Below, in pieces: positions 5,819 through 28,962 of a stretch of DNA of 58,166 nt; the stretch's first letter is position 1; every line of letters begins with the position of its first letter. Origin of the DNA: a virus; the IMG/VR virus record IMGVR_UViG_3300030101_000950, positions 1 to 58,166 of that record; one strand, 5' to 3'. The position numbers and the translations under genes were made by a program. The notes below the pieces were generated by a model. That model was not told where the DNA came from, did not search any database, and saw nothing but the letters and a program-made list of their open reading frames with translations.

Positions 5819-6223
5819 ATGAGTGAAGTAAAACTAGAAAATATCCCAGACCCAGAGAGTGTAAAAGCTCCACCCGTAAATGAAGATGTTAAGACACAGC
5901 TACCTGACCCTAAGGGTTGGAAGATATTAGTAGCTATGCCACAAGCAGATGAAAAGACGGAAGGTGGTATTATCAAAGCCTCACAAACAATCAAAGACGA
6001 AGAAGTATCTAATATATGTGGATATGTCTTAAAGATTGGACCTGAAGCTTATAAAGATAAACAAAGATTTCCTTCAGGACCTTGGTGTCAAAAAGGAGAT
6101 TGGGTAATCTTTAGAGCCTACTCAGGTACTCGTATGGTCATGTATGGACAAGAGTTTCGTTTAATTAATGACGATACTGTGGAAGCAGTCGTTGATGACC
6201 CAACAGGAGTAGTAAGAGCATGA
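5819..6223 (+). CDS. GroES-like co-chaperonin
   Basis: A 134-residue protein of the Cpn10 fold. An N-terminal extension of about 30 residues precedes PKGWKILVAMPQ, then a mobile-loop-like stretch EKTEGGIIKAS, then CGYVLKIGP and GDWVIFRAYSGTRM, which match the GroES barrel order. Phage versions such as T4 gp31 and the RB49 protein replace host GroES so that large capsid proteins can fold. Lying between the portal and the scaffold gene fits that role. No catalytic residues are expected. Confidence 0.8.
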   Translation: MSEVKLENIPDPESVKAPPVNEDVKTQLPDPKGWKILVAMPQADEKTEGGIIKASQTIKDEEVSNICGYVLKIGPEAYKDKQRFPSGPWCQKGDWVIFRAYSGTRMVMYGQEFRLINDDTVEAVVDDPTGVVRA

Positions 6224-12604: not shown

Positions 12605-13375
12605 ATGGCATATGCAGCAGGTAAAAAAGCAATTGGTATCTGTGACAGATGTGGTTTCACTTATAAATTAAGAGATTTAAAATACGAAGTACAAGACCAA
12701 AAAAAAACAGGTAGTAGAATATGTCCGTCTTGTATAGACCCAGACCAACCTCAGTATAGAGTAGGAGAGGTTGATACTTCAGATAATATAGGTTTGTTTA
12801 ATCCTAGACCTGACTCAGGCGAAAAGACCTCAACAACTTATTTTGGATTTAATCCATTAAATAGCACGGGTATGGTAATAAGAGGAGGTATAGGCTTTAG
12901 TAGAATTACAACAACTAATGCACCTAGTCCTTCTCCTAGTCCTAGTCCTAGTCCTAGTCCTTCACCAAGTCCGGCTAATGTAACAGTTCAATTAACACAA
13001 AATTTATTAACAACAAGCTTAAATGCTGTTAGTACTTTAGCTGTAACAAACTATGTAGTTACAGTACAAGCTTATGGTGGAGGTAATCGTTATTATATTG
13101 ACTCTGTAAGACAGCCTACATTAACTTTAGAAGAAGGTAAGACTTATAGATTTGACCAAGGTAATGCTAGTAATGGAACTCACCCATTAAGATTTTCTAC
13201 AACTTCCGATGGAACTCATGGAGGAGGAAGTGAATATACAACAGGTGTGACAACAAATGGAACACCGGGTAATGCAGGAGCATATACTCAAATAACTGTA
13301 GCTGTTGGAGCACCTACTCTTTATTATTACTGTACCAATCATAGTGGTATGGGAGGACAAGCAAATACACCATGA
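12605..13375 (+). CDS. Zinc-ribbon protein with C-terminal cupredoxin-like domain
   Basis: 256 residues in three parts. An N-terminal zinc ribbon has C13, C16, C40 and C43. A Ser-Pro repeat linker lies at about 107-122. A C-terminal beta domain contains H193 in NGTHPLRF and C243, H246 and M249 in YYYCTNHSGMGG. His plus Cys-x2-His-x2-Met is the type 1 copper site arrangement of cupredoxins, with amicyanin spacing. It lies between head-tail adaptor genes, so it is a probable virion protein. The copper site is inferred from the motif, and a purely structural role is possible. Confidence 0.7.
   Translation: MAYAAGKKAIGICDRCGFTYKLRDLKYEVQDQKKTGSRICPSCIDPDQPQYRVGEVDTSDNIGLFNPRPDSGEKTSTTYFGFNPLNSTGMVIRGGIGFSRITTTNAPSPSPSPSPSPSPSPSPANVTVQLTQNLLTTSLNAVSTLAVTNYVVTVQAYGGGNRYYIDSVRQPTLTLEEGKTYRFDQGNASNGTHPLRFSTTSDGTHGGGSEYTTGVTTNGTPGNAGAYTQITVAVGAPTLYYYCTNHSGMGGQANTP
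12923..12970 (+). repeat. CCTAGT hexamer tandem repeat
   Basis: Perfect and near-perfect CCTAGT units encode the Ser-Pro linker of the surrounding gene. Four perfect units are contiguous at 12935-12958, flanked by variants (CCTTCT, CCTTCA). Gain or loss of units would keep the frame and change linker length. Confidence 0.9.
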
Positions 13376-14303: not shown

Positions 14304-14731
14304 TGGCAATTTCTCAAGCAATGTGTACTTCGTTTAAAGTTGAACTTATGACAGGTACGCACAATTTTACAAACAGTAGTGGTAATGCTTTTAAGTTAGC
14401 TTTGTACACAAGCTCGGCTACACTAGGTGCAGCTACAACTGCTTTCTCAGCAACTAATGAAGTTTCTGGTACAGGTTATTCTTCTGGTGGAGGAGCATTA
14501 ACAAATGTGACTCCAACTTCAAGTGGAACAACTGCATTTACTGACTTTGCTGATTTAACTTTTAGTAGTTCTACAATAACTGCTAATGGTGCTTTAATTT
14601 ATAACAGCACTAATAGTAATAAAGCTGTATGTGTATTAGCTTTTGGTGGAGATAAAAGTTCTACCAATGGTGACTTTACAATACAATTTCCAACACCTGA
14701 CGCTTCAAACGCAATTATTAGAATAGCTTAA
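14303..14731 (+). CDS. Putative tail or fibre structural protein
   Basis: 142 residues, Thr/Ser/Ala-rich and low in charge, with an expected beta fold: NAFKLALYTSSATLGAATTA early and GDFTIQFPTPDASNAIIRIA at the end. An AGGAGGC ribosome site precedes it. It sits before the first fibre gene and is a likely surface component. Confidence 0.6.
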   Translation: MAISQAMCTSFKVELMTGTHNFTNSSGNAFKLALYTSSATLGAATTAFSATNEVSGTGYSSGGGALTNVTPTSSGTTAFTDFADLTFSSSTITANGALIYNSTNSNKAVCVLAFGGDKSSTNGDFTIQFPTPDASNAIIRIA

Positions 14732-15846
14732 TGGCATTTGTTCTTAACGATAGAGTTAAAGAAACAACAACAACTGCAGGAACAGGCACAGTAAATCTAG
14801 CAGGTGCTGAAACAGGTTTCGAGTCATTTGTTGCAGGTATTGGTAATTCCAATACAACTTACTATGCTATCGTTCATCAAAGTCTAGACGAGTTTGAAGT
14901 TGGTTTAGGAACTATAACAGACGCAAGTCCAGACACTTTAGCGAGAACTACAGTCATTAGTAGTTCTAATTCTGACGCTGCAGTTAATTTTTCTGCAGGA
15001 ACTAAAGATGTATTTTGTACATTACCTGCAAGTAAAGCTGTAGTAGAAGATGGCTCAGACAATATAGCATTAGGTGCTGCACCGACTGTTAGTAATGCTT
15101 CTGGAGATTTTACTTTTGACGTTGTAGGAAACTTAAACTTAGACGCAGATGGTGGCTCTATTACTTTTAAAGATGATGGATTGCTTACAGCTACTCTTGC
15201 AAGAAGCGTGGGAAATTTTGAAGTCACAGTAAATCAAAGTGATGGCGATTTTGTACTTAAAGGTAATGATGGTGGGTCAGCTTTAACTGCTATTACTGTA
15301 GATATGTCTAATGGAGGTGAGGCAATATTTTATGGAGGTATTGATATAGCTGCAGGAACTGATATTGAATTAAATGATGGAACTTGGACAGGAGAAAAAG
15401 ATAGAAAAATACAAGCACATAGTGGTCATATCTATTATCAAAGTGCCTCTCATGTTTTTAGAAATGCAAGTGGCACTAATACAGCACAAGTTGATGGCTC
15501 TGGAAACTTTGTAGCTTTAGCAAATATTACAGCTTATGGCTCTCCTTCTGATATAAAACTTAAAGAAAATATAGAAGTTATAGATAATGCTTTAGATAAA
15601 GTAAAACAACTTAAAGGTATTACCTACACTTTAAAATCTGATGGCAACAGACTCACAGGACTAATAGCACAAGACTTAGAAAAAGTATTACCTGAAGCAG
15701 TTTATACTTCAGAAACAATACCTGATGAAATTAATGGCATAGAAGCAGAGGAACACTTAGCTATTCGTTATGGTAATACAGTAGGTTTGTTAGTAGAAGC
15801 TATCAAAGAACTAGAAGCAAGAATAAAAGAATTAGAGGATAAGTAA
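14731..15846 (+). CDS. Tail fibre with S74 chaperone domain
   Basis: 371 residues. A low-complexity beta-rich body ends in an intramolecular chaperone. The S74 signature is SPSDIKLKEN (S273, D274), then LKGITYTLKS, RLTGLIAQDLEKVLPEAV and LAIRYGNTVGLLVEAIKELE. In this family the C-terminal domain guides trimer folding and cleaves itself off at the conserved Ser. It is one of two S74 fibres here. Confidence 0.85.
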   Translation: MAFVLNDRVKETTTTAGTGTVNLAGAETGFESFVAGIGNSNTTYYAIVHQSLDEFEVGLGTITDASPDTLARTTVISSSNSDAAVNFSAGTKDVFCTLPASKAVVEDGSDNIALGAAPTVSNASGDFTFDVVGNLNLDADGGSITFKDDGLLTATLARSVGNFEVTVNQSDGDFVLKGNDGGSALTAITVDMSNGGEAIFYGGIDIAAGTDIELNDGTWTGEKDRKIQAHSGHIYYQSASHVFRNASGTNTAQVDGSGNFVALANITAYGSPSDIKLKENIEVIDNALDKVKQLKGITYTLKSDGNRLTGLIAQDLEKVLPEAVYTSETIPDEINGIEAEEHLAIRYGNTVGLLVEAIKELEARIKELEDK

Positions 15847-16652
15847 TGGCATTTCCTTCTAGTTCAGTTTCAATGTCACAGATGAATACAGAAAGAGGAT
15901 TGCCTTCAAGTACAAGCGTTTCTATAAATAATACTGAAGTTAAACAAATGGCTCATCAGTATACGCCCGGAACTACATCTGTAAATCTTGCACAATGGCG
16001 AAGTAAAAGTGGATTTAGTAATCAAGCAACTTTCACTATAGGATATGAACAGCAAACTACAGCATCAGGACCTGCTACACCTGCTAGTTCTAGTTATTAT
16101 TGGGGATATGGATATGTAGGTATCGCACCATTTCCGAGCACAGGAAACGATGCAAGTGAACTCGCAATGGGACGTATGCCTCTAATGTATCCCGGAGGTT
16201 TTGCTACACAATTATATAATGTTGCAGGTGGCACAAGAACTTCTAACCCATTATTAAGTTTATATCAATTACGTTGTAATTCTTCATCAATACCCGGAAG
16301 TTCTGCAGGACCATGGGGTCCTTCTACTTTATTTATGGAGTTTAGACACCAAGGTATTAATGGTGGTGGTACATATCCTACAACTTTTACTAATGCAGGT
16401 TGGACATCTATAAACATAACTAATCCTGCATATAATGTGACTTATAATAGGGCATCAGCAACATTTGGTAGTTATATGGGTCCTTTTGTAATTAGTGGAA
16501 CTCCTATTCCGGGAAGTGCTAGTTGTTCTTTTTCATGGACAGGTCAACCAGCATGGGCAAACAACGTAAATAATATGTATCCTTTTGGTCCAACACCTAG
16601 TGGTACTTTTCCTTCAACAGGTAGTACAACAAACACTATCACAATAACTTAA
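15846..16652 (+). CDS. Putative fibre or receptor-binding accessory protein
   Basis: 268 residues, rich in Ser/Gly/Thr/Pro/Tyr with very few charges. The N-terminus SVSMSQMNTERGLPSSTSVS resembles the attachment ends of small modular tail proteins in marine phages. It lies immediately after an S74 fibre gene. Host recognition is inferred from position. Confidence 0.55.
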   Translation: MAFPSSSVSMSQMNTERGLPSSTSVSINNTEVKQMAHQYTPGTTSVNLAQWRSKSGFSNQATFTIGYEQQTTASGPATPASSSYYWGYGYVGIAPFPSTGNDASELAMGRMPLMYPGGFATQLYNVAGGTRTSNPLLSLYQLRCNSSSIPGSSAGPWGPSTLFMEFRHQGINGGGTYPTTFTNAGWTSINITNPAYNVTYNRASATFGSYMGPFVISGTPIPGSASCSFSWTGQPAWANNVNNMYPFGPTPSGTFPSTGSTTNTITIT

Positions 16653-16673
16653 TGATATTGTTATAATAACAAA

Positions 16674-17582
16674 ATGGTAGCAAGTGTAAGAAAAGATATA
16701 GATGAATTTGGAAAAGAATTTTATCGTCTAAGGTTTGAAAGCACATACAGTCATCAAGAAATAAATTATGTTATTGAATGGAGTAAACAGGACTCGGCTT
16801 TGCTTGTTGATGAATTTGGAAACTTTGATAAAGAAGGAGCAGAAACTTTAGAACGTTGGCATAAAGAAGCTGAAGCATATAGACACGCTATAGGAAGAAA
16901 CGATTCTTTTTTATTCAGAACAGATATATATGATGAAGTATACGTCAATCAAAAACTTGTAAGAAAAGATTGGAATATTGCAACAGGAGATGGTCCGGCT
17001 CTTTTAGAAAAAGTAAAAGCTGCATTTCCTAAAGAAGAAGAAATATGGGAGTCTGGTGCTTTAAATGTTATAGGAACTTACTATGCTCCTGATGGTGCAC
17101 CTTTAAGACCTCCATACAAAAATACTAATTCTATTAGTATGTACCATGTACAAAGAGAGCCTAGTCCTTATCTTTTACAAAGTTATGGTATAGACCCTAG
17201 CACTCATACATGGTGTCCTTGGTACGGATTAAAATACGATTTAGAAACTAAAGAGCGTATGTTAAAGATTGTTTATTATGGAATAAAACAAACTGAAAAC
17301 ATACCTAGACCTGAAGGTTTGCCTGAAGATATAAACCCTTATTGGTATTTTTTTGCTGATATTTACCATGAAGATGGCAGTAAGTCTCAAGAAAGAGATA
17401 TATTTTTATTTGCGACTGAAGAAATATTTCGTCCTTGGTGTGAAAAATATGGACATACTTATCCCATACCTGATGAAAAACTAAAAGACGATATATGGTG
17501 TTATGGAATAGTTTATGACTTTGAAACACTAGAAGTAAAACAAGTTAAAGGTTATATAAGATATAGAATAGATGGAATATAA
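16674..17582 (+). CDS. Unknown protein in the fibre region
   Basis: 302 residues, Tyr/Trp/Glu/Lys-rich, soluble and probably alpha/beta. Two related segments (WYGLKYDLETKE near 183 and CYGIVYDFETLE near 280) suggest an internal repeat. The composition differs from the Ser/Thr-rich fibre proteins around it and matches the two oxygenase genes that follow, so it may act with them. It is unrecognised. Confidence 0.6.
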   Translation: MVASVRKDIDEFGKEFYRLRFESTYSHQEINYVIEWSKQDSALLVDEFGNFDKEGAETLERWHKEAEAYRHAIGRNDSFLFRTDIYDEVYVNQKLVRKDWNIATGDGPALLEKVKAAFPKEEEIWESGALNVIGTYYAPDGAPLRPPYKNTNSISMYHVQREPSPYLLQSYGIDPSTHTWCPWYGLKYDLETKERMLKIVYYGIKQTENIPRPEGLPEDINPYWYFFADIYHEDGSKSQERDIFLFATEEIFRPWCEKYGHTYPIPDEKLKDDIWCYGIVYDFETLEVKQVKGYIRYRIDGI

Positions 17583-18285
17583 TTTTTTAAAAGCAGTAGA
17601 AAAAGCTGATGATAAGTTTTTTGATACTATAGAAAAAGAAAAAATTAATTTTTTACAAAACAGATTTCAAGAGCAGGGATTTGTTTTAGTTAAAAACTTT
17701 TTATCTGAAGAAGTTGCAGACTTAGTTAACGAAAGCTTTGAAATACATTACGCTAAAGCAGAATATATAGAAAAATATTTTGAAAATACAATACCAATTA
17801 GTTTGACAAAACCCAATATAGCTTCTGCTCTTTATGGAAGGTTTGGAAAGATAGATAAAAAAATGGGATTTGCTAATAGAGATTTGCATAGTTATGCCTA
17901 TAGTGTTGGAGAGGCTTTGCTAAAAAAGAAAAAAGATTTTATAGAAAACATTTCACAACAAAAGTTAGATTATACAAATTCTTTTTGTAGAAAATATACT
18001 GAAGGAAGTAGTTTAGGAAAACATAAAGACAGACCTGCACTTCAAGTTTCTGCTACTATTTGTCTGGGTGGAGAAAAGTGGGAAATATTTATAAAAGATA
18101 AGTCAGATAATACACATAGCATAACTATGAGTGCAGGTGATGCAATAGTTTATTCAGGCACAGAGCTTGAACATTGGAGAGAAAAATTAGATAAAGGATA
18201 TGTTAATATGTGCTTTATACATTATTGCAAAAAAGACTCAGAATATAAATTAGACGGAAGAGAATTTATAGGACAGCCAAGATAA
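17572..18285 (+). CDS. 2-oxoglutarate/Fe(II)-dependent oxygenase
   Basis: 237 residues. A double-stranded beta-helix core shows the iron triad in order: H151 and D153 (GKHKDRP), distal H201 (EHWRE), with R203 and later residues available for 2-oxoglutarate. GDAIVYSGTELEHW and CLGGEKWEIFI are typical of the fold. Such enzymes hydroxylate protein, nucleic acid or small-molecule substrates; the substrate here is unknown. It overlaps the preceding gene by 11 nt and lies 12 nt before a second oxygenase. Confidence 0.8.
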   Translation: MEYNFLKAVEKADDKFFDTIEKEKINFLQNRFQEQGFVLVKNFLSEEVADLVNESFEIHYAKAEYIEKYFENTIPISLTKPNIASALYGRFGKIDKKMGFANRDLHSYAYSVGEALLKKKKDFIENISQQKLDYTNSFCRKYTEGSSLGKHKDRPALQVSATICLGGEKWEIFIKDKSDNTHSITMSAGDAIVYSGTELEHWREKLDKGYVNMCFIHYCKKDSEYKLDGREFIGQPR

Positions 18286-18297
18286 ACGGGGTTAAAT

Positions 18298-18897
18298 ATG
18301 TTTGGGAAAGTAGGAATGTTTCATGGAGAGCAAGGTTTGCCTCGTGATTTATGTGACGAATTGAATGAAGAAATAATGAATAAAGTTCCACCTACAGATG
18401 GAGAGATAGGAGCAGGAACAGATGGTATAAAAGAAACTAATACTAGAAATTCAATTTTACGTTGGGTCACACCAGAAACACCTCAACTCTGGGATAAAGC
18501 ACTTAACTTAATAATGCCTTATGTTGTAGGCACAAATAGAACAAACTTTGGTGTTGATATTTCCGGTGGGTGTAATGAAATACAGCATACAGAATATCAA
18601 GAAGGACAGCATTATACTTGGCATATGGATTCAGATTTTGCACCTTTAGAAGTTGTAAAGAGTCGTATAGCATATGATAGAAAGTTAAGTGTCACAATAC
18701 AACTTACGCACGAAGACAATTATGATGGAGGAGATTTAGAAATTTTTGAAAGAGAATTAAATTTACCAAAACATTTAGTAAGACAACAAGGTACTGTAAT
18801 TATATTTCCTTCTTTCATACAACATCGTGTGACACCTGTCACTTCGGGAATAAGACATTCATTGGTAACTTGGATAGAAGGTACGCCATGGAGATAA
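18298..18897 (+). CDS. 2-oxoglutarate/Fe(II) oxygenase, PKHD-type
   Basis: 199 residues of the prolyl-hydroxylase-like (PiuC-type) class. H109 and D111 (YTWHMDSD), distal H176 (QHRVTPV) and R186 (GIRHSLVTW) are in correct order, with DNYDGGDLEIF between. Phage PKHD-type enzymes are often near tail genes. Possible targets are fibre or host-surface proteins, which is inference. Confidence 0.88.
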   Translation: MFGKVGMFHGEQGLPRDLCDELNEEIMNKVPPTDGEIGAGTDGIKETNTRNSILRWVTPETPQLWDKALNLIMPYVVGTNRTNFGVDISGGCNEIQHTEYQEGQHYTWHMDSDFAPLEVVKSRIAYDRKLSVTIQLTHEDNYDGGDLEIFERELNLPKHLVRQQGTVIIFPSFIQHRVTPVTSGIRHSLVTWIEGTPWR

Positions 18898-18903
18898 TAA
18901 AAT

Positions 18904-19641
18904 ATGTTTGGAATAACAGCTTTTGCTCAATCGCCTTTTGCAGGTTTGGGCAGCATAACAGGAAACGCTTCTTTTGTACCGGTAGGCTTTGAACTAACCG
19001 GCTCTATTAATTCTGTCACACCTGTCATTACAGTAAATGTACCTGTAGTTAGTGGTTTTATTTTTGCAAATGTTGGTTTAGGAACAGTCACAATAAGTGG
19101 AGATGCCAACATTCACGAGTTTATTACAGGCGTACAAGGTGTTTCAGCTTTAGGAGTAATACAAAATACAGCAGGTGCAATTGTAAATGTAACAAACACT
19201 ATTGATACTGATACTGTTACAGGAACAACAGCAGTAGGAAATGCAGTTGTATTTGGTGGCTCAGTTCAAGGAGTTTCAAGTTCAGGTAAAACTGCAGCTT
19301 TAGGAGATGAAATAATTATTGGTGACTGTAACATTACAGCAGCACAAGTTGGAGATGTGACAGCTACAACTGCGTTAAGTTCTATAAGTTTACAAACTTT
19401 TAATGTATTACCTATGACAGGCTTAAGCAGTTCTGCTTCTTTAGGCACAGTAATAGTAATTCCTGAATGTAAAGTTTCTGTAAGCTCAGTAAGTGCAAGT
19501 GGAAGCTTAGGAGTTTTAAATATTTGGAGTTTAGTTAATGATGAACAAACACCAAACTATACACCCGTTAATGATAATCAGTCTGCAGGATATTCTGAAG
19601 TTAATACAACTCAAAATCCTAATTGGACTGACGTAGCATAA
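18904..19641 (+). CDS. Beta-rich tail protein with a C-terminal triplet repeat
   Basis: 245 residues, extremely rich in Val/Thr/Ser/Gly. The N-terminus MFGITAFAQSPFAGLG and the C-terminal triple motif (QTPNYTPV, QSAGYSEV, QNPNWTDV) are recognisable phage tail-protein features. The three repeats are 11 residues apart. It lies between the oxygenases and the second S74 fibre, so a tail spike or fibre base component is likely. Confidence 0.65.
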   Translation: MFGITAFAQSPFAGLGSITGNASFVPVGFELTGSINSVTPVITVNVPVVSGFIFANVGLGTVTISGDANIHEFITGVQGVSALGVIQNTAGAIVNVTNTIDTDTVTGTTAVGNAVVFGGSVQGVSSSGKTAALGDEIIIGDCNITAAQVGDVTATTALSSISLQTFNVLPMTGLSSSASLGTVIVIPECKVSVSSVSASGSLGVLNIWSLVNDEQTPNYTPVNDNQSAGYSEVNTTQNPNWTDVA

Positions 19642-19661: not shown

Positions 19662-21029
19662 ATGGCAAGTACATATGATAACGATTTGCGTTTAAATGAA
19701 ATGGCAACCGGTGACCAAAGTGGTACATGGGGTGACACTACAAACTTAAATTTACGTTTGATAGCAGAAGCTTTTTCATATCAAACAGACGCAACATTTA
19801 CAACAGATGCAAATAAACAAGTAACCATAGCAAATGGAGCTTCTGATAAATATAGAGGTATGTATATCAAAGTAACATCAACAGTAAATGGTGGTCTTAC
19901 TGCTACAAAAGATTTAGAAATTTTACCTACAACTGTATCTAAAGTTTTGTTTGTAGAAAACTCAACAACAGGAGGACAATCTATTGTAGTCAAACAAGGC
20001 TCTGGAGCTTCTGTAACTATAGCTAACGGAACTTGTAAATTATTATTTTTAGATGGAGCAGGTGCAGGTGCTGCTGTTTATGATGGCTTAAATAATCTAG
20101 CTTTGAGTGGTGACCTAACTATAGAAGGTGACGATTTAAAAATGGGTACTAATACTAGTGGTCATATGTTAATTGCAGATGGCACTAACTTTAATCCTGT
20201 AGCTATGAGTGGAGACGCTACTATGACAAGTAATGGTGCGTTAACTATAGCTAATGACGCAGTTGAACAAGCTATGATTGCAGACGATGCAGTAGGTGCA
20301 GACCAATTAGCTTCAGACGCAGTTGTCAATGCTAGTGTAGATGCTAATGCTGCTATTGCTTTTAGTAAGATGGCAAACTTAACTACATCAAGAGCTTTAG
20401 TTTCAGATGGTAATGGAGATGTGACACCGGCAACAACAACATCTACAGAGATAGGTTATGTGAATGGAGTCACGTCAGCAATACAAACACAACTAAATAC
20501 AAAACTAGGCAATGCTACTAATACATGGTTTAGCTCTGCTGATGGAGTGAATAGATTTTATTTTGGAAACAATGGCTCTACTCTTATAAAAACAGCAACT
20601 GACCATCAATTTAGAAACGCCTCAGATGTAACAGTAGTTGAGTTTACTTCTACCGGAGTAGGAAGATTTGATAATGATGTTGTCGCTTACTACTCGTCAG
20701 ATGAAAACTTAAAAGAAAATATAAAAGAATTACAAAGTCCATTAGAAAAATTAAGTCGTATTAGAGGAGTGACTTTTGATTGGAATGATAAACAAGATAC
20801 TTATGAAGGTAGCGATATAGGTGTCATTGCACAAGAAGTACAAAGACAATTTCCTGAGCTTACTACTACTCGTTCTGATGGATATATGGCAGTAAAGTAT
20901 GAAAAGCTTACTGCTGTATTGATAGCAGCAGTCAATGAGTTAGCTGATGAAGTTCGTGGCAATAGAGAATTGATAAAAGCAATGGAAGCTATTTTAATTG
21001 CAGATAAAATACCTGAGCAAACTAACTAA
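19662..21029 (+). CDS. Tail fibre with S74 chaperone domain
   Basis: 455 residues. The N-terminus (YDNDLRLNEMATGDQSGTWG) is typical of fibre attachment regions in marine phages. The shaft is repetitive and Ala/Thr-rich. The S74 domain begins at S346-D347 (SDENLKENIKEL), followed by GVTFDWNDKQ, GVIAQEVQRQFPEL and AVKYEKLTAVLIAAVNELAD. Self-cleavage after trimer folding is expected. An AGAGGAAC ribosome site precedes it. Confidence 0.87.
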   Translation: MASTYDNDLRLNEMATGDQSGTWGDTTNLNLRLIAEAFSYQTDATFTTDANKQVTIANGASDKYRGMYIKVTSTVNGGLTATKDLEILPTTVSKVLFVENSTTGGQSIVVKQGSGASVTIANGTCKLLFLDGAGAGAAVYDGLNNLALSGDLTIEGDDLKMGTNTSGHMLIADGTNFNPVAMSGDATMTSNGALTIANDAVEQAMIADDAVGADQLASDAVVNASVDANAAIAFSKMANLTTSRALVSDGNGDVTPATTTSTEIGYVNGVTSAIQTQLNTKLGNATNTWFSSADGVNRFYFGNNGSTLIKTATDHQFRNASDVTVVEFTSTGVGRFDNDVVAYYSSDENLKENIKELQSPLEKLSRIRGVTFDWNDKQDTYEGSDIGVIAQEVQRQFPELTTTRSDGYMAVKYEKLTAVLIAAVNELADEVRGNRELIKAMEAILIADKIPEQTN

Positions 21030-22630: not shown

Positions 22631-22980
22631 TGGACGATATTGTAAAGTTAATAACTGAGTTAGGATTTCCTGTTGCTGCAGCATTAGGACTAGGTGTATT
22701 TGTTTGGAAACTAATTAATAGAATTATAGATGGCATGGAATCTAAGATTGATGTTGTTGATGATAAAGTAAATGAACAATTAAAAGCTATGGAAGGTAGG
22801 CTAGATGCTAAATTAGAAGCACAACATGGAATATTGATTGCTTTGATAGACAGAGTTAGAAGTGTAGATAATGAAATTATTAGACAAGATACTTTACTTA
22901 AGACTATGTTAGGTGTACCTAATCTAGTACAGAACGATAAAATAGCAAAGGCAGATAGAGATGACCAAAGAAAAGATTAA
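22630..22980 (+). CDS. Membrane-anchored coiled-coil protein, holin candidate
   Basis: 116 residues. A hydrophobic N-terminal helix (FPVAAALGLGVFVWKLI) is followed by a long coiled coil with a heptad pattern. The arrangement recalls BhlA/UviB-type holins. It is coupled to the nuclease (TAATG) and lies just before the curli-like cassette. Confidence 0.6.
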   Translation: MDDIVKLITELGFPVAAALGLGVFVWKLINRIIDGMESKIDVVDDKVNEQLKAMEGRLDAKLEAQHGILIALIDRVRSVDNEIIRQDTLLKTMLGVPNLVQNDKIAKADRDDQRKD

Positions 22981-23503
22981 AAGAAAAAGAGGCAGACCTT
23001 CTAATGCAGAACTAGCTGCTAGAAAGAAAGCAAGAGATAAAGACGTAGCTTTAATTATTTGTATGTATGTAGGTTTATTTATGGTTATAGCTTTATGTGT
23101 AAATTTAGCATTAGCAGATGAAATGAATTTTAAATTTAAGTCGCCAAGTTTTTCAGGTATAAATACATCTCAACATTATTTGACAATAGAAAATCAAGAA
23201 CATACTAGATATAAAACATTGCAAGAAGAAATAGAGGCTTTAATAGAACAAGCAGAAAGAGATGAACAGAATACTACAACTGCAAGATTTATAAGAAACT
23301 TTGAAACAAGAGTTTATGCAAAACTATCTCAACAATTAGTTGATAAGTTGTTTGGAGAAACTGCACAAGATAACGGGACAATAGAACTTGAGGGGAATAC
23401 TATTGACTATAAGGTTGATGAAACCAATATAATTTTGACAGTTACTAATGAAGCTAACAAACAAACAGTTATTACTTTTCCTCTTAATAGTTTTACTTTC
23501 TAG
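22961..23503 (+). CDS. csgF: CsgF-like curli assembly protein
   Basis: 180 residues. After a membrane or signal segment (residues about 35-52, ending ALA), the mature part begins DEMNFKFKSPSFSG, matching the CsgF start that plugs the CsgG pore. A helix with LSQQLVDKLFG and a C-terminal beta portion with NTIDYKVDETNIILTV follow. Residues 1-28 are very basic, with an AT-hook-like KRKRGRPS. An internal ATG at 23063 would give a plain signal peptide. It directly precedes csgG, which strongly supports the call. Confidence 0.75.
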   Translation: MTKEKIKRKRGRPSNAELAARKKARDKDVALIICMYVGLFMVIALCVNLALADEMNFKFKSPSFSGINTSQHYLTIENQEHTRYKTLQEEIEALIEQAERDEQNTTTARFIRNFETRVYAKLSQQLVDKLFGETAQDNGTIELEGNTIDYKVDETNIILTVTNEANKQTVITFPLNSFTF

Positions 23504-24251
23504 CTGTACTGTCTTTTATGATGATGCTTTACAAAATCAAAAGATTTCAAAGTATGCTGAAAGAGTTGGAGTTATTAATAAAGAAATAGAGACTATTTTA
23601 CCGGCAGATAAAAAACCTATAGTAGCTATATACCCAACTTCTTTTACAGACCAAACAGGACAAAGAAGAAGTAATAGTAATTTTGCAACGTTTAGCACAG
23701 CAGTCACACAAGCACCATATGTGCTTTTGATAAAGACTTTAAAAGCTGTATCTAACGGAGAGTTTTTTGAAGTTGTAGAAAGAATAGGTTTAGATAATCT
23801 AACCAAAGAAAGACAACTAATAAGAAGTACCAGAGAAACATTTGATGACCCACAAAAATTAAAACCATTAGTTTTTGCAGGTCTTATAATGGAAGGAGCT
23901 ATAGTCGGCTATGAAACCAATACAAGAAGTGGAGGTCGTGGAGCTAGACTTTTAGGCATAGGGTTATCAAAACAATATAGACAAGATACTGTCACGCTGT
24001 CTTTAAGAACTGTATCTGTTTTGACCGGTAGAGTTCTTATAGAAGTCACAGTATCTAAAACGATATTAAGTGTTGGTACTAATCAAGACGCTTTTAGATT
24101 TATAGAAAATAAAACCGAATTGATTGAAATAGAAAATGGTGATGTAGAAAATGAAAGCGTAACGATAGCTGTACAAGCAGCCATTGAAGAAGCTATTTTG
24201 TCTACAATCAAAAAAGGAATTGAAAAACAATATTGGAGCTATAAAGAATGA
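23448..24251 (+). CDS. csgG: CsgG-like outer-membrane secretion lipoprotein
   Basis: 267 residues. A lipoprotein signal has lipobox LLSSC (C20). The CsgG core follows: VAIYPTSFTDQTGQRR, NFATFSTAVTQAPYVLLIKT, VVERIGLDNLTKERQLIR, LVFAGLIMEGAIVGYETNT and RGARLLGIGLSKQYRQDTVT. CsgG forms a nonameric ungated outer-membrane pore for curli subunits, and the length matches host proteins. It overlaps csgF by 56 nt. In a phage it could export the neighbouring curlin-like protein or perforate the outer membrane. Confidence 0.93.
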   Translation: MKLTNKQLLLFLLIVLLSSCTVFYDDALQNQKISKYAERVGVINKEIETILPADKKPIVAIYPTSFTDQTGQRRSNSNFATFSTAVTQAPYVLLIKTLKAVSNGEFFEVVERIGLDNLTKERQLIRSTRETFDDPQKLKPLVFAGLIMEGAIVGYETNTRSGGRGARLLGIGLSKQYRQDTVTLSLRTVSVLTGRVLIEVTVSKTILSVGTNQDAFRFIENKTELIEIENGDVENESVTIAVQAAIEEAILSTIKKGIEKQYWSYKE

Positions 24252-24955
24252 AAAAGTATTTACCAGTAATTATTTTTTTAAGTATAAATATTTTTGCTAC
24301 AGACAATGAAATATCTATAGACCAAGCAGGAGCTACGGCAAATATAGATATTGAGCAGCTTGGGTCTGGAAACTTAATCGGTGGTGCTACTGCTGTATCA
24401 GGTACTATGACACCATTAGATTTAGATGGTGCAACAATGACACTTGATGTAAACCAACTAGGTAATTCAAATATATTTAAAGGCGATATATATGCTGATA
24501 GTTATACAGGCTTTTTTGAATTTACCGGAGACTCTAATACATTTGCCATACAGACAGACCCTAATAATACTTATGGTGCAGACAGTTCTAATATAAATGT
24601 ACAAGTGTCTGGGTCATCAAATGCTTTTACTTTTAATCAAGCGACTAATGCACAAGCTTCTACATTAGATTTAGATTGGACAATAAATGGCTCTAACAAT
24701 TCAATTACATCTGCAATTGACCAAGACTTAGCTACAAACTATATGAACATAGATGGGTCTGATAATACTGTGACATTTGATGGTGACGGGTATCAAGGAG
24801 CATATTTTCATTTGACTCATACAGGAGGGTCAAGAACAATAAATGTTACACAACAAAGCACACTTGATAATGATTGGCTTAAGATTACTTCTAATGGCTC
24901 TAATGGTACTTTTTGTGTCAATCAAAACGACCAAGGCACTAGCACAAGCTGTTGA
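24248..24955 (+). CDS. Secreted curlin-repeat protein
   Basis: 235 residues with an N-terminal Sec signal (MKKYLPVIIFLSINIFA). The body carries curlin-like repeats with spaced Gln-x-Gly and Asn (IDQAGATANIDIEQLGSGN, DVNQLGNSN) and further Ser/Asn/Gly-rich strands. Two late cysteines are present (FCVNQ and the C-terminal Cys). It is the expected cargo of the CsgG pore. The repeats are looser than in CsgA/CsgB, so amyloid formation is inference. Confidence 0.7.
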   Translation: MKKYLPVIIFLSINIFATDNEISIDQAGATANIDIEQLGSGNLIGGATAVSGTMTPLDLDGATMTLDVNQLGNSNIFKGDIYADSYTGFFEFTGDSNTFAIQTDPNNTYGADSSNINVQVSGSSNAFTFNQATNAQASTLDLDWTINGSNNSITSAIDQDLATNYMNIDGSDNTVTFDGDGYQGAYFHLTHTGGSRTINVTQQSTLDNDWLKITSNGSNGTFCVNQNDQGTSTSC

Positions 24956-25988
24956 TATAGGAACTGTAGAACAAGTATCAGGATATGCCAGAATAGAACG
25001 TGACAAAGATTATGATGTAATTACAGACTTTGGCATACAGTCTTACGACAAAGCACAAACAGAAGCAGGTCGTATGGGTATTAGATTTATAGACGATACA
25101 AGTATTCGGATTACTGAACATTCAATGGTAGTCATAGATGAATTTGTATTTGATGCAAACCCAGATAATTCTAGATTAGCTTTAAATTTTGTAAAAGGTA
25201 CAGCAAGATTTACTTCAAGTCTTACTAATAAAATATCTAAAAAAAATATAAAGCTTACAACAAATAGTGCAGTAGTAGGAATTAGAGGAACAGACTTTAC
25301 AATAACAGTAGAGCCAGATACAGGAAAAAGTTTGTTTATATTATTACCTGACAAAGATGGCAACCCATCAGGTGAAATATCCGTGACAACAGCAATGGGT
25401 ACAGTAATACTTAATAAACCTTATCAGGCTACAACTACTAGAGTTTATGAAGCTCCACCAAGTAATCCGGTTATTTTAGATTTGTCTTTGGATTTTATAA
25501 ACAATATGTTATTGATTGCTCCACCCGAAGAAGATAAGGATATAGAAGAAAGTACTGAAAAAAAACAAGAGAATAATTTATTAGATTTTGATGAACTAGA
25601 TGTAGATTATTTAGCTGATGACTCGCTAGATAAAGACGAACTAGAATTTACAGAATTAGACTATGATGCTTTGAATGTAAATTTTTTAGAAGATTTGTTA
25701 GATATAATTACTGAACTTGATGTTTTGGATAATGAGAAAGAATTAACTCAAACAATATCAGCAGTAAATATAGAAGGCACTACTATAGGGCAAGACCAAA
25801 AAACACAAATAACTACAATAGTTTCTGGACAAGAAGTAAAATTAACAAGGTCAGTCGCTTCATCTACATCAATACAAATAGATAGTGGAGAAAGCTACTT
25901 AGTAGTTTTAGAACAAGATGGTGTCACTAATCAAGTTAAAGTAAATGGTGGTGGCTCTTCTGTAATTGTAATAAGGCAAAGTCAATGA
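24870..25988 (+). CDS. FecR-domain exported protein
   Basis: About 372 residues. A hydrophobic signal segment ends ALAQA; it is followed by a FecR-type beta domain (VDIGTVEQVSGYARIERD, SIRITEHSMVVIDEFVFD, TNSAVVGIRGTDFTITV). After it come a Pro/Glu-rich acidic region and a small C-terminal beta part. FecR-domain proteins act in the periplasm, often beside secretion or adhesin genes. In-frame ATGs at 24843, 24894 and 24903 are alternatives. It overlaps the curlin-like gene. Confidence 0.72.
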   Translation: MIGLRLLLMALMVLFVSIKTTKALAQAVDIGTVEQVSGYARIERDKDYDVITDFGIQSYDKAQTEAGRMGIRFIDDTSIRITEHSMVVIDEFVFDANPDNSRLALNFVKGTARFTSSLTNKISKKNIKLTTNSAVVGIRGTDFTITVEPDTGKSLFILLPDKDGNPSGEISVTTAMGTVILNKPYQATTTRVYEAPPSNPVILDLSLDFINNMLLIAPPEEDKDIEESTEKKQENNLLDFDELDVDYLADDSLDKDELEFTELDYDALNVNFLEDLLDIITELDVLDNEKELTQTISAVNIEGTTIGQDQKTQITTIVSGQEVKLTRSVASSTSIQIDSGESYLVVLEQDGVTNQVKVNGGGSSVIVIRQSQ

Positions 25989-27108: not shown

Positions 27109-28962
27109 ATGGCATTAGTAAAGTTTCAATTTAAACCCGGAATAAATAAAGAGTCTACAGCCTATGCTGCAGAGGGTGGTTATGTTGACTCAGAAAAAAT
27201 AAGATTTAGAAAAGGCGTTCCTGAAAAAATTAATGGCTGGACAAAAAACAGTACAAATACTTTCATTGGAACTTGCAGAAAAATACATAACTATAGTGAT
27301 ACGGGTTTAACAAACTATACAATTCTTGGAACACATCAAAAGCTTTATGTAAAAGAAGGTAATGCTTACAATGATATTACTCCTTTACGTCAAACAACTG
27401 CTGCAGGAGATGTCACATTTGCAGCAACAGAAAACTCAAGCACTCTTACTGTAACAGATGCAAACCATGGAGCTAATCCGGGAGACTTTGTTACCTTTAG
27501 TGGTGCACAAAGTTTAGGTGGAAACATAACAGCAGCAGTTTTAAATAAAGAATATCAAATTCAAACAACACCGACTGCAAATACATATACGATTACAGCT
27601 ACAGTAACAGCTACTGCAAATGATGTAGGGCAGTCAGGTGGAAGTAATACTGTTGGTACATATCAAATAACCGGTGGTTTAGATACATTTGTTTCAGGCT
27701 CAGGTTGGGGGTCAGGTGCATGGGGTGCAGGTGGTTTTGGTAGTACAAATCCAATTGCATTAAACAGCCAATTAAGAATTTGGACAATAGATAATTTTGG
27801 AGAAGATACTTTAGCAGCACCTAGAGGTGGTCCACTTTATTTGTGGGACGAAAGCAATGGAACTACAACTCGTGCAGTTCTTGCTAGTTCTTTAGGGGGT
27901 GCTAGTGATATACCTACTGCAATACTACAAGTAATGATTTCTGATGTGGATAGGCATTGTGTTGCTTTTGGAGCTAACCCTATAGGCTCTGCTGTAGTAG
28001 ACCCATTATTTGTTAGATGGTCAGACTCTGAGTCTTTTTTAGATTGGACACCTAAAGCAACTAATAGTGCCGGTGGAGTAAAACTTTCTTCAGGTAGTCA
28101 GATTATTGGAGCCATACCTACTAGACAAGAAACTTTAGTATTTACCGATACAAGTGTAGTTTCTATGAGATTTGTTGGCTCACCTTTTTATTTCTCTTTT
28201 AATGAAGTTGCTACAGGTTTAGGCATGATTGGACCTAATGCAGGTATAGCTATAGGAACTGCAGTATATTTTATGGACGATGGTGCTTTCTATAAAGCTG
28301 AAGGTAGTGTAGGAAAACTGCCATGTACAGTTTTAGATTATGTATTTAGTGACTTTAATCTGTCACAAAAATATAAAGTTTTTGCAGCGAACAATTCTGC
28401 TTACAATGAAATAATTTGGTTTTATCCTTCTTCAGGTAGCAACGAAATAGATAGATATGTTTCTTATAATTATTTAGAAAATGCTTGGGCAGTTGGTACA
28501 ACGGCAGATGGTTATACGAGAACAGCTTGGTCACAAGCTCCTACATTAGATTTTCCTTTAGCTGCAGGTAAGTTAGACAACACAAATCTTAATTATTTAT
28601 ATAATCAAGAAGATGGCAATTTAGCTGATGGCTCTGGCTTTACATCATATGTAGAAACTGCAGATTTTGATTTAGACCCTGCCGGAGAACAGCTTATGTT
28701 TATTTCAAAAGTTATACCAGACTTAAAATTTTTAGAATCAAGCAGTACTAATGACACAGTAAGTTTTATTTTAAGAGGAAGAAAATATCCTTTAGAAGAT
28801 TTAGCTACTCTTTCAACTTCTAACGTAACTCCATCTACTACTTTTGTAAGTACACGAGGAAGGTCAAGACAAACTGCACTTAAAATACAATCTACATCAG
28901 GAGACTTTGGTTGGCGACTTGGTGATTTAAGATTAGATATAAGAGCTGACGGAGAAAAATAA
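27109..28962 (+). CDS. Tail nozzle/tube protein, P22 gp10 or T7 gp12-like
   Basis: 617 residues, beta-rich. The opening FKPGINKESTAYAAEGGYVD, then KIRFRKGVPEKINGWTK and later FLDWTPKATNSAGG and VVSMRFVGSPFYFSF, match the large beta-propeller tail proteins of podoviruses. It would form the lower tail tube below the adaptor. It starts directly after the lysozyme stop, which begins the tail/ejection block. Confidence 0.75.
   Translation: MALVKFQFKPGINKESTAYAAEGGYVDSEKIRFRKGVPEKINGWTKNSTNTFIGTCRKIHNYSDTGLTNYTILGTHQKLYVKEGNAYNDITPLRQTTAAGDVTFAATENSSTLTVTDANHGANPGDFVTFSGAQSLGGNITAAVLNKEYQIQTTPTANTYTITATVTATANDVGQSGGSNTVGTYQITGGLDTFVSGSGWGSGAWGAGGFGSTNPIALNSQLRIWTIDNFGEDTLAAPRGGPLYLWDESNGTTTRAVLASSLGGASDIPTAILQVMISDVDRHCVAFGANPIGSAVVDPLFVRWSDSESFLDWTPKATNSAGGVKLSSGSQIIGAIPTRQETLVFTDTSVVSMRFVGSPFYFSFNEVATGLGMIGPNAGIAIGTAVYFMDDGAFYKAEGSVGKLPCTVLDYVFSDFNLSQKYKVFAANNSAYNEIIWFYPSSGSNEIDRYVSYNYLENAWAVGTTADGYTRTAWSQAPTLDFPLAAGKLDNTNLNYLYNQEDGNLADGSGFTSYVETADFDLDPAGEQLMFISKVIPDLKFLESSSTNDTVSFILRGRKYPLEDLATLSTSNVTPSTTFVSTRGRSRQTALKIQSTSGDFGWRLGDLRLDIRADGEK

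Follow-up and report, generated by a model that had tools for sequence, protein, structure and literature searches.

Why would a virus keep two different oxygenase genes side by side in the midst of its tail-fibre genes? This question is raised by the IMG/VR record IMGVR_UViG_3300030101_000950, positions 1 to 58,166, and the whole of this stretch (58,166 bases) is referred to as the window. Its portal protein is 41-44% identical to the portals of HTVC027P, HTVC023P, 023Pt_psg01 and DSL-LC04 and, judged by the portal only, the window is probably a pelagiphage-like podovirus of the HTVC023P type. The two genes, OxyA and OxyB, are predicted to encode 2-oxoglutarate (2OG)-Fe(II) oxygenases and lie in a tight same-strand run of tail-fibre genes, directly after an orphan gene at 16674 (the three genes are together referred to as the trio). 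We consider it an evenly poised possibility that OxyA and OxyB, which are long associated, act together as modifiers of the phage's own adhesin or fibre.

OxyB is a PiuC/PKHD-like PF13640 2OG-Fe(II) oxygenase, for which turnover is predicted. It matches PF13640 with an E-value of 9e-16 (59 bits versus a cut-off of 27), its best PHROG is phrog_61, and profile matches in the PDB include the PKHD hydroxylase 3dkq (8e-12), PiuC (1e-9) and prolyl 4-hydroxylases (P4Hs; 1e-5), among them 2jig, which we take to be the Chlamydomonas enzyme. The iron triad H109-x-D111 ... H176 and R186 are invariant in 11 of 11 homologues, and the same columns are invariant in all 66 members of a wider set. OxyB aligns with the PiuC/YbiX PKHD hydroxylases over the catalytic half, but it differs from these in scoring below the cut-off for the NCBIfam PiuC/YbiX PKHD equivalog (at best 69.4 bits versus 143) and in being part of a phage operon with OxyA.

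For OxyA no Pfam family scored above its cut-off and only sub-cut-off matches to 2OG families were obtained (e.g. PF13532, 21.2 bits versus 31.2), while its PHROGs matches are phrog_2954 (E 6e-33) and also phrog_3531, the family being named 'ferrochelatase'. Every residue of its triad, H151-x-D153 ... H201, is invariant in the 74 aligned homologues; a conserved Arg or Lys approximately 10 residues past the distal His is lacking, and the invariant R140 and R203 and the near-invariant R230 are candidates for anchoring the 2OG carboxylate. An AlphaFold model based on 69 sequences (predicted local distance difference test, pLDDT, 90.3; predicted template modelling score, pTM, 0.87) has the P. putida prolyl 4-hydroxylase 4iw3 as its top Foldseek match (E 3e-10, 12% identity), and the best 50 of 1976 matches are all 2OG/Fe enzymes. 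The 50 matches listed by VIA-align are likewise 2OG/Fe enzymes, with SnoN at Z 19 and P4H and PHD2 near Z 17 (AviO1, also among the structure matches, is presumably such an enzyme), and the structural matches span Z 16-19 over 163-192 residues, in keeping with a double-stranded beta-helix. Chelatases are absent from the structures listed, which is in itself no test of a chelatase fold. None of the 74 homologues matched the Pfam ferrochelatase families at E 0.01, and the few Pfam matches that were seen among them concern two sub-cut-off 2OG families (two members each) and three chance-like families with a single member each. Taking sequence and model together, OxyA is a member of the 2OG-Fe(II) oxygenase superfamily with predicted turnover and, because its model matches 2OG oxygenases, the name 'ferrochelatase' is most likely wrong for the family. 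A 2010 cyanomyovirus paper (PMC3037559) uses the entry 'Hyp. with ferrochetalase domain' for T4-GC 615; P-RSM4 gene 049 is T4-GC 615, and OxyA belongs to T4-GC 615 as well.

The original prediction had been that two different 2OG oxygenases with complete iron triads are adjacent to each other and flanked by fibre genes and an unknown protein. Both open reading frames (ORFs) are in place with triads that are invariant in their homologues, Peptidase_S74 fibre genes (S74a and S74b) are present on both sides, and the 16674 protein is without a family match, so that this description can be kept (Table 1). The spacing is 21 nucleotides (nt) between the 15846 and 16674 genes, 12 nt between OxyA and OxyB, and 6 nt between OxyB and the 18904 gene.

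Table 1. Genes of the fibre slot that holds the oxygenase pair; aa, amino acids.
Feature	Coordinates	Strand	Remarks
S74a, tail-fibre gene	14731..15846	+	PF13884 4e-16; PHROG tail fibre families; Peptidase_S74 (intramolecular chaperone) domain at C-terminus; first edge of fibre slot
15846 gene, putative adhesin/fibre tip, 268 aa	15846..16652	+	before trio; candidate substrate
16674 gene, orphan protein, 302 aa	16674..17582	+	overlaps start of OxyA by 11 nt
OxyA, predicted 2OG-Fe(II) oxygenase, 237 aa	17572..18285	+	phrog_2954, triad, AlphaFold model
OxyB, predicted PiuC/PKHD-like 2OG-Fe(II) oxygenase, 199 aa	18298..18897	+	PF13640, PDB profile matches
18904 gene, structural-type protein	18904..19641	+	second slot edge; no Pfam/PHROG family
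S74b, second S74 tail-fibre gene	19662..21029	+	PF13884 1e-15; PHROG tail families

Conservation of the trio, which had been put forward as a check on the original prediction, was found in the close clade: the trio is present in all seven contigs that span the stretch, and three more contigs (L100, L471 and L474) end inside or beside it. Ahead of the trio the 15846 gene is present in 7/7 contigs that reach that far, L100 included. The ratios of nonsynonymous to synonymous substitution rates (dN/dS) of the trio are 0.16-0.25 against the related contigs L005 and L007, which indicates purifying selection; the values against L003 (0.24-0.56) are uninformative, as dS is only 0.02-0.04 in that comparison. 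As judged from sequence, the trio genes are not chance ORFs.

The pairing of the two enzymes extends well beyond this clade. An IMG/VR profile search gave at least 600 stretches with OxyA, of which the best 80 were used (78 new), and pairing was scored with our own profiles. In 69 of the 78 distant loci (69/71 of those with room) OxyB is on the same strand within 3 kb of OxyA, with the best-scoring OxyB always upstream; seven of the remaining loci end too early to be judged and two are without OxyB. A second, weaker OxyB-like gene is present downstream in a few loci, and a third 2OG-type gene is usually situated between OxyB and OxyA (PF13759 fits three of four tested middle genes or their query types). 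The 78 OxyA sequences form 11 clusters at 60% identity and 22 at 70%, with a paired member in 8 and 18 of these, respectively. Among GTDB genome contigs the pair was detected in 16/20 loci; of the other four, L119 begins inside OxyA, and L103, L115 and L116 look cellular. Of 12 named phages whose records were inspected around a match to OxyA or OxyB, nine have the two close together or fused. The pair in S-SCSM1 depends on a weak OxyA match (5e-12) and that in S-RSM4 on a weak adjacent OxyB-like gene (5e-6), a strong OxyB being 3.8 kb away, while in ACG-2014f a single protein of 362 amino acids combines OxyA with a PF13640 domain. The order OxyA-OxyB is confined to the window clade among the loci examined; OxyB comes first in all 69 distant pairs and in the viewed records that have two separate genes. 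Comparison of these loci indicates that the pairing is old and spans podo- and myophages.

Two side observations concern the enzyme families. Stand-alone OxyA relatives without OxyB were noted at L103 8088-8801, L115 7101-8417 and L116 393-1094, on contigs labelled Rickettsiales, Cellvibrionales and Alphaproteobacteria, and such apparently cellular relatives are a possible source of the phage family. Moreover, proteins annotated as 'DNA endonuclease V' in the same islands (L009 11471-11953 and L012 7675-8187) show HxD...H by reading, with a similarity to PF13640 that is weak in L009 (E 0.029) and absent in L012; these may also be misnamed 2OG oxygenases.

The neighbourhood of the distant loci points to adhesin and tail genes. 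Specifically, 65 distant loci extend 600 nt or more beyond OxyA, and a homologue of the window 27109-28962 protein is encoded downstream in 46 of these (within 200 nt in 33) and not in the other 19. The corresponding family, phrog_3287 ('virion structural protein'), accounts for 42/60 scanned proteins downstream of OxyA; in the window this gene is approximately 8 kb beyond the pair. Upstream of OxyA a glycine-rich ORF is present in 40 of 68 viral and genome-contig loci with at least 2.5 kb on that side, and none was seen downstream in 98 loci examined, where the downstream room varies. Among four glycine-rich proteins tested two match PF21722, one is just under the cut-off and one has no match; phrog_2295, which includes a glycine-rich protein that was tested, is the commonest upstream family (22/58). 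Since glycine-rich domains are known from fibre tips we call these upstream proteins adhesins.

A converse search started from a DNA pattern for the adhesin proline motif N-T-P-x3-P-x-Q-G-N and gave 118 new loci, 59 of them with at least 2.5 kb downstream. A 2OG enzyme is situated within 3.5 kb in 43 of the 59 (OxyB in 36, both enzymes in 21); when three of the 118 loci, on contigs shared with the OxyA set, are removed, the figures are 41/57 and 34 for OxyB. In Mosig the oxygenase set has fibre genes on one side and neck genes on the other, and in S-RSM4 and Sf-FP1 it directly precedes neck genes. In some loci a tryptophan halogenase, a protein O-fucosyltransferase or a sulfotransferase is found near the set, which would fit a decoration pathway. 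Sulfotransferase-like genes upstream of the set were noted at L067 4122-4703 (phrog_3347) and, by reading only, at L052 1361-2176.

The co-occurrence of the two gene families is already published. HTVC023P-type pelagiphages have a 'ferrochelatase' and oxygenase pair of the same families as the window pair (phrog_2954 and phrog_61), and the window shares the arrangement that defines it, in which phrog_2954 and a 2OG-Fe(II) oxygenase are encoded next to each other. It was stated that any phage encoding ferrochelatase had an adjacent oxygenase, the ferrochelatase being explained as inserting heme iron within a heme/iron argument (PMC9599517). Elsewhere both genes are treated as auxiliary metabolic genes, and a time series counts phrog2954 and phrog61 among three categories of genes with enrichment in seasonal marine viruses (PMC11561400). 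In contrast to the published pair, both partners are here predicted to be 2OG oxygenases and are found beside adhesin/tail genes, and the window clade has them in reverse order with the orphan gene ahead. The prolyl 4-hydroxylases (P. putida P4H with EF-Tu, 4iw3; 2jig) have a distant similarity to the OxyA model and the OxyB profile only. The Chlorella virus PBCV-1 prolyl 4-hydroxylase, likened by description only, is also a viral 2OG enzyme but from a eukaryotic virus, and its reported substrates include peptides of viral origin (cited in PMC9301287). The open-access literature that was searched yielded no account of such a pair hydroxylating phage fibres (subscription papers were not covered). 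The accessible text of PMC12753301 gives no expression class for the HTVC027P 2OG gene, and that of PMC9602691 names no 2OG oxygenase among the S-SCSM1 virion proteins. What is new, as far as the open-access literature was searched, is the revised identification of OxyA, the gene order adhesin-oxygenase-tail together with the search in the converse direction, and the rearrangement with an orphan gene in the window clade.

If the pair acts on the phage's own adhesin or fibre, it would be made late in infection, translated together with the fibre genes, and meet the nascent adhesin, drawing on 2-oxoglutarate, O2 and iron from the host for the hydroxylation or other oxidation of adhesin/fibre side chains. 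The oxidation might tune receptor binding, stability or later decoration. The most likely target in the window clade would be the 15846 protein, and 16674 would be a helper or a further enzyme; elsewhere the glycine-rich adhesins would be the target. We choose 15846 as the first candidate substrate in the window clade because its gene travels with the pair. It has no Pfam or PHROG family, matched no phage record, and is fast-evolving (dN/dS 0.49-0.66; 0.40-0.66 together with S74a, i.e. above the values of the enzymes), and from position and evolution only it is a putative adhesin or fibre tip. It had no tblastn match in 29 slot loci reached via the 18904 protein (L475-L503), from which a fast-evolving gene could escape detection. 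A bolder and less probable reading is a widespread, hitherto unrecognised aquatic-phage system in which two or more non-redundant 2OG oxygenases (OxyB, a variable middle enzyme and OxyA) work on the adhesin with which the phage binds its receptor, and the hydroxylated residues would then perhaps be glycosylated, sulfated or otherwise decorated.

Searches with the 16674 protein gave nothing in Pfam and PHROGs (up to E 1), in NCBIfam (up to E 0.1) and in 50,697 phage records, and a single, non-significant row among PDB sequences (E 0.24). Its relatives were seen only alongside the pair or at a contig end (L100), its dN/dS is 0.18-0.24, and its AlphaFold model is of low confidence (pLDDT 45). The idea of a prenyltransferase-like barrel, which came from strand repeats, was abandoned, as the model is too poor and gave no fold match at E <= 0.001, and so was that of a third oxygenase, there being no match to the 2OG queries, OxyA and OxyB included. 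Although the starts of the 15846 and 21029 proteins look alike, no significant alignment between the two was obtained.

Several observations weigh against a pair devoted to the phage's adhesin or fibre. The window pair is without an adjacent glycine-rich adhesin, and the distant OxyA loci are, by their relatedness, not independent. Three of the 12 named records (P-SSM7, Syn10 and Sf-FP1) have no nearby pair: in Syn10 and Sf-FP1 OxyA is without an OxyB match in the stretch viewed, and in P-SSM7 OxyA is beside dam in the replication region, while that of ACG-2014f is beside NAD synthetase. None of the searched 2OG kinds was detected in HTVC023P (41.6/60.9 kb examined) or DSL-LC04 (50/61.5 kb examined); the tail region of HTVC027P has three other 2OG-type genes. 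Moreover, 27 of the 29 L475-L503 loci gave no 2OG match, some of these loci being short or having an 18904 match of only 16-22 residues, and 18904 relatives adjoin S74-type fibres in loci without oxygenases; these fibres therefore do not need the pair. A 2OG-type gene of another kind occupies this slot in each of the other two loci, L476 and L502, and in L476 it adjoins an adhesin-like gene. The original suggestion that fibre proteins or host-surface molecules are modified thus survives in part: the recurrent adhesin/tail neighbourhood makes this the best reading, but the 27 loci without a 2OG match make the link to this particular fibre backbone clade-specific.

The question of which residues might be modified adds to these points. 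For the proline motif as a hydroxylation site, a control sample of glycine-rich proteins was drawn and scored for the looser P-x-Q-G-N (80 listed of 120, of which 39 were evaluated, 36 were too short and 5 lacked the ORF). In low guanine-plus-cytosine (GC) controls an oxygenase is near in 6/10 with the motif versus 4/9 without, and in high-GC contigs in 0/3 and 1/17, respectively; the motif was rejected as the site, and a test pooling the biased and control scans (p = 0.006) was not used. Irrespective of the motif, 2OG enzymes are near 1/20 high-GC versus 10/19 low-GC glycine-rich proteins, and because the former rarely adjoin the enzymes, lineage or habitat is confounded with the adhesin-oxygenase link. 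A Ser-Pro linker like that of the window's 12605-13375 protein was considered as a general target, given the weak resemblance of OxyB to algal P4Hs, of which the structure 3gze presumably holds a Ser-Pro peptide. It was rejected, as any 2OG match was present in only 4 of 74 viral contigs of at least 6 kb with Ser/Thr-Pro arrays (from 120; 32 were without such an ORF and 14 were short), and 023Pt_psg01, a carrier of the pair, shows no array of this kind in the part examined. Collagen-like Gly-x-y runs were found in only two ORFs among the loci scanned, both low in proline.

The alternatives fare less well. A host-surface target (lipopolysaccharide, exopolysaccharide or an outer-membrane protein, modified e.g. 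against re-adsorption of progeny or superinfection) is less likely than the phage's own adhesin or fibre and, in our view, unlikely. The adhesin association would fit it too, since adhesin and receptor editing must match, related enzymes in S-SCSM1 are near GDP-fucose and other sugar genes, and 2/58 upstream flanks have sulfotransferase-like neighbours; however, no glycan genes are directly beside the pair in the window, and most distant loci are flanked by virion genes or further 2OG enzymes. A metabolic role appears quite improbable, whether as a drain on 2-oxoglutarate by which nitrogen or energy metabolism is steered or in the metabolism of iron and heme. Published proposals point that way, concerning 2OG and NtcA in cyanophages (PMC3037559) and ferrochelatase with an oxygenase and iron regulation in pelagiphages (PMC9599517). 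The heme idea depends on the ferrochelatase name, which the fold and triad of OxyA contradict, and with OxyA renamed the basis for heme readings is removed; a 2OG drain would not obviously need several divergent enzymes beside adhesins. Least probable is an AlkB- or TET/JBP-like modification or repair of nucleic acids, for which speak the R140-x-Y142...H151-x-D153 motif of OxyA (with the spacing of N-x-Y...H-x-D in AlkB), the weak PF13532 match, a sub-cut-off Tet_JBP match of the fused ACG-2014f protein and the position of some cyanophage 2OG genes near uvsW and of the P-SSM7 OxyA beside dam, but most distant loci adjoin tail genes and not replication genes, and AlkB is absent among the best 50 rows of each structure comparison (weak as an exclusion).

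In the window clade the oxygenase set looks like an exchangeable, clade-specific cargo of a fibre hot spot. Identities between the window and L007 are 99% for the 14303 gene, 64-70% for S74a, 53-57% for 15846, 86% for 16674, 74-75% for OxyA, 68% for OxyB, 79-81% for 18904 and 88% for S74b; S74a is 60-70% identical in L003, L005 and L007 and 99.7% in L002. Across 14731-19641 there is a divergence peak over the fibre and oxygenase genes, the sequence being 91-99% identical before and 87-97% after it, and such a local peak is as expected of a recombination hot spot.

Other window genes were noted in passing. The structural-type protein at 12605-13375 has a (Pro-Ser)9-like linker, kept in close relatives, and its C-terminal domain shows, by reading, a cupredoxin-like H...YYC..H..M spacing; its halves match separate genes in 023Pt_psg01. 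Sequence reading only suggests a curli/type VIII secretion-like set at 22961-25988, with a CsgG-like lipoprotein (23448-24251) and a curlin-like repeat protein (24248-24955); curli genes and the type VIII secretion system are mentioned for the HTVC023P-type group (PMC9599517). At 5819-6223 there is a probable GroES-like co-chaperone, by synteny with annotated genes of HTVC023P, HTVC027P and DSL-LC04.

Finally, the adhesin-oxygenase-tail order turns the abundance of 2OG oxygenases in marine phages into a directly testable question. If the pair indeed modifies the phage's own adhesin or fibre, host range would vary at a second level, through post-translational chemistry, in addition to changes in sequence.

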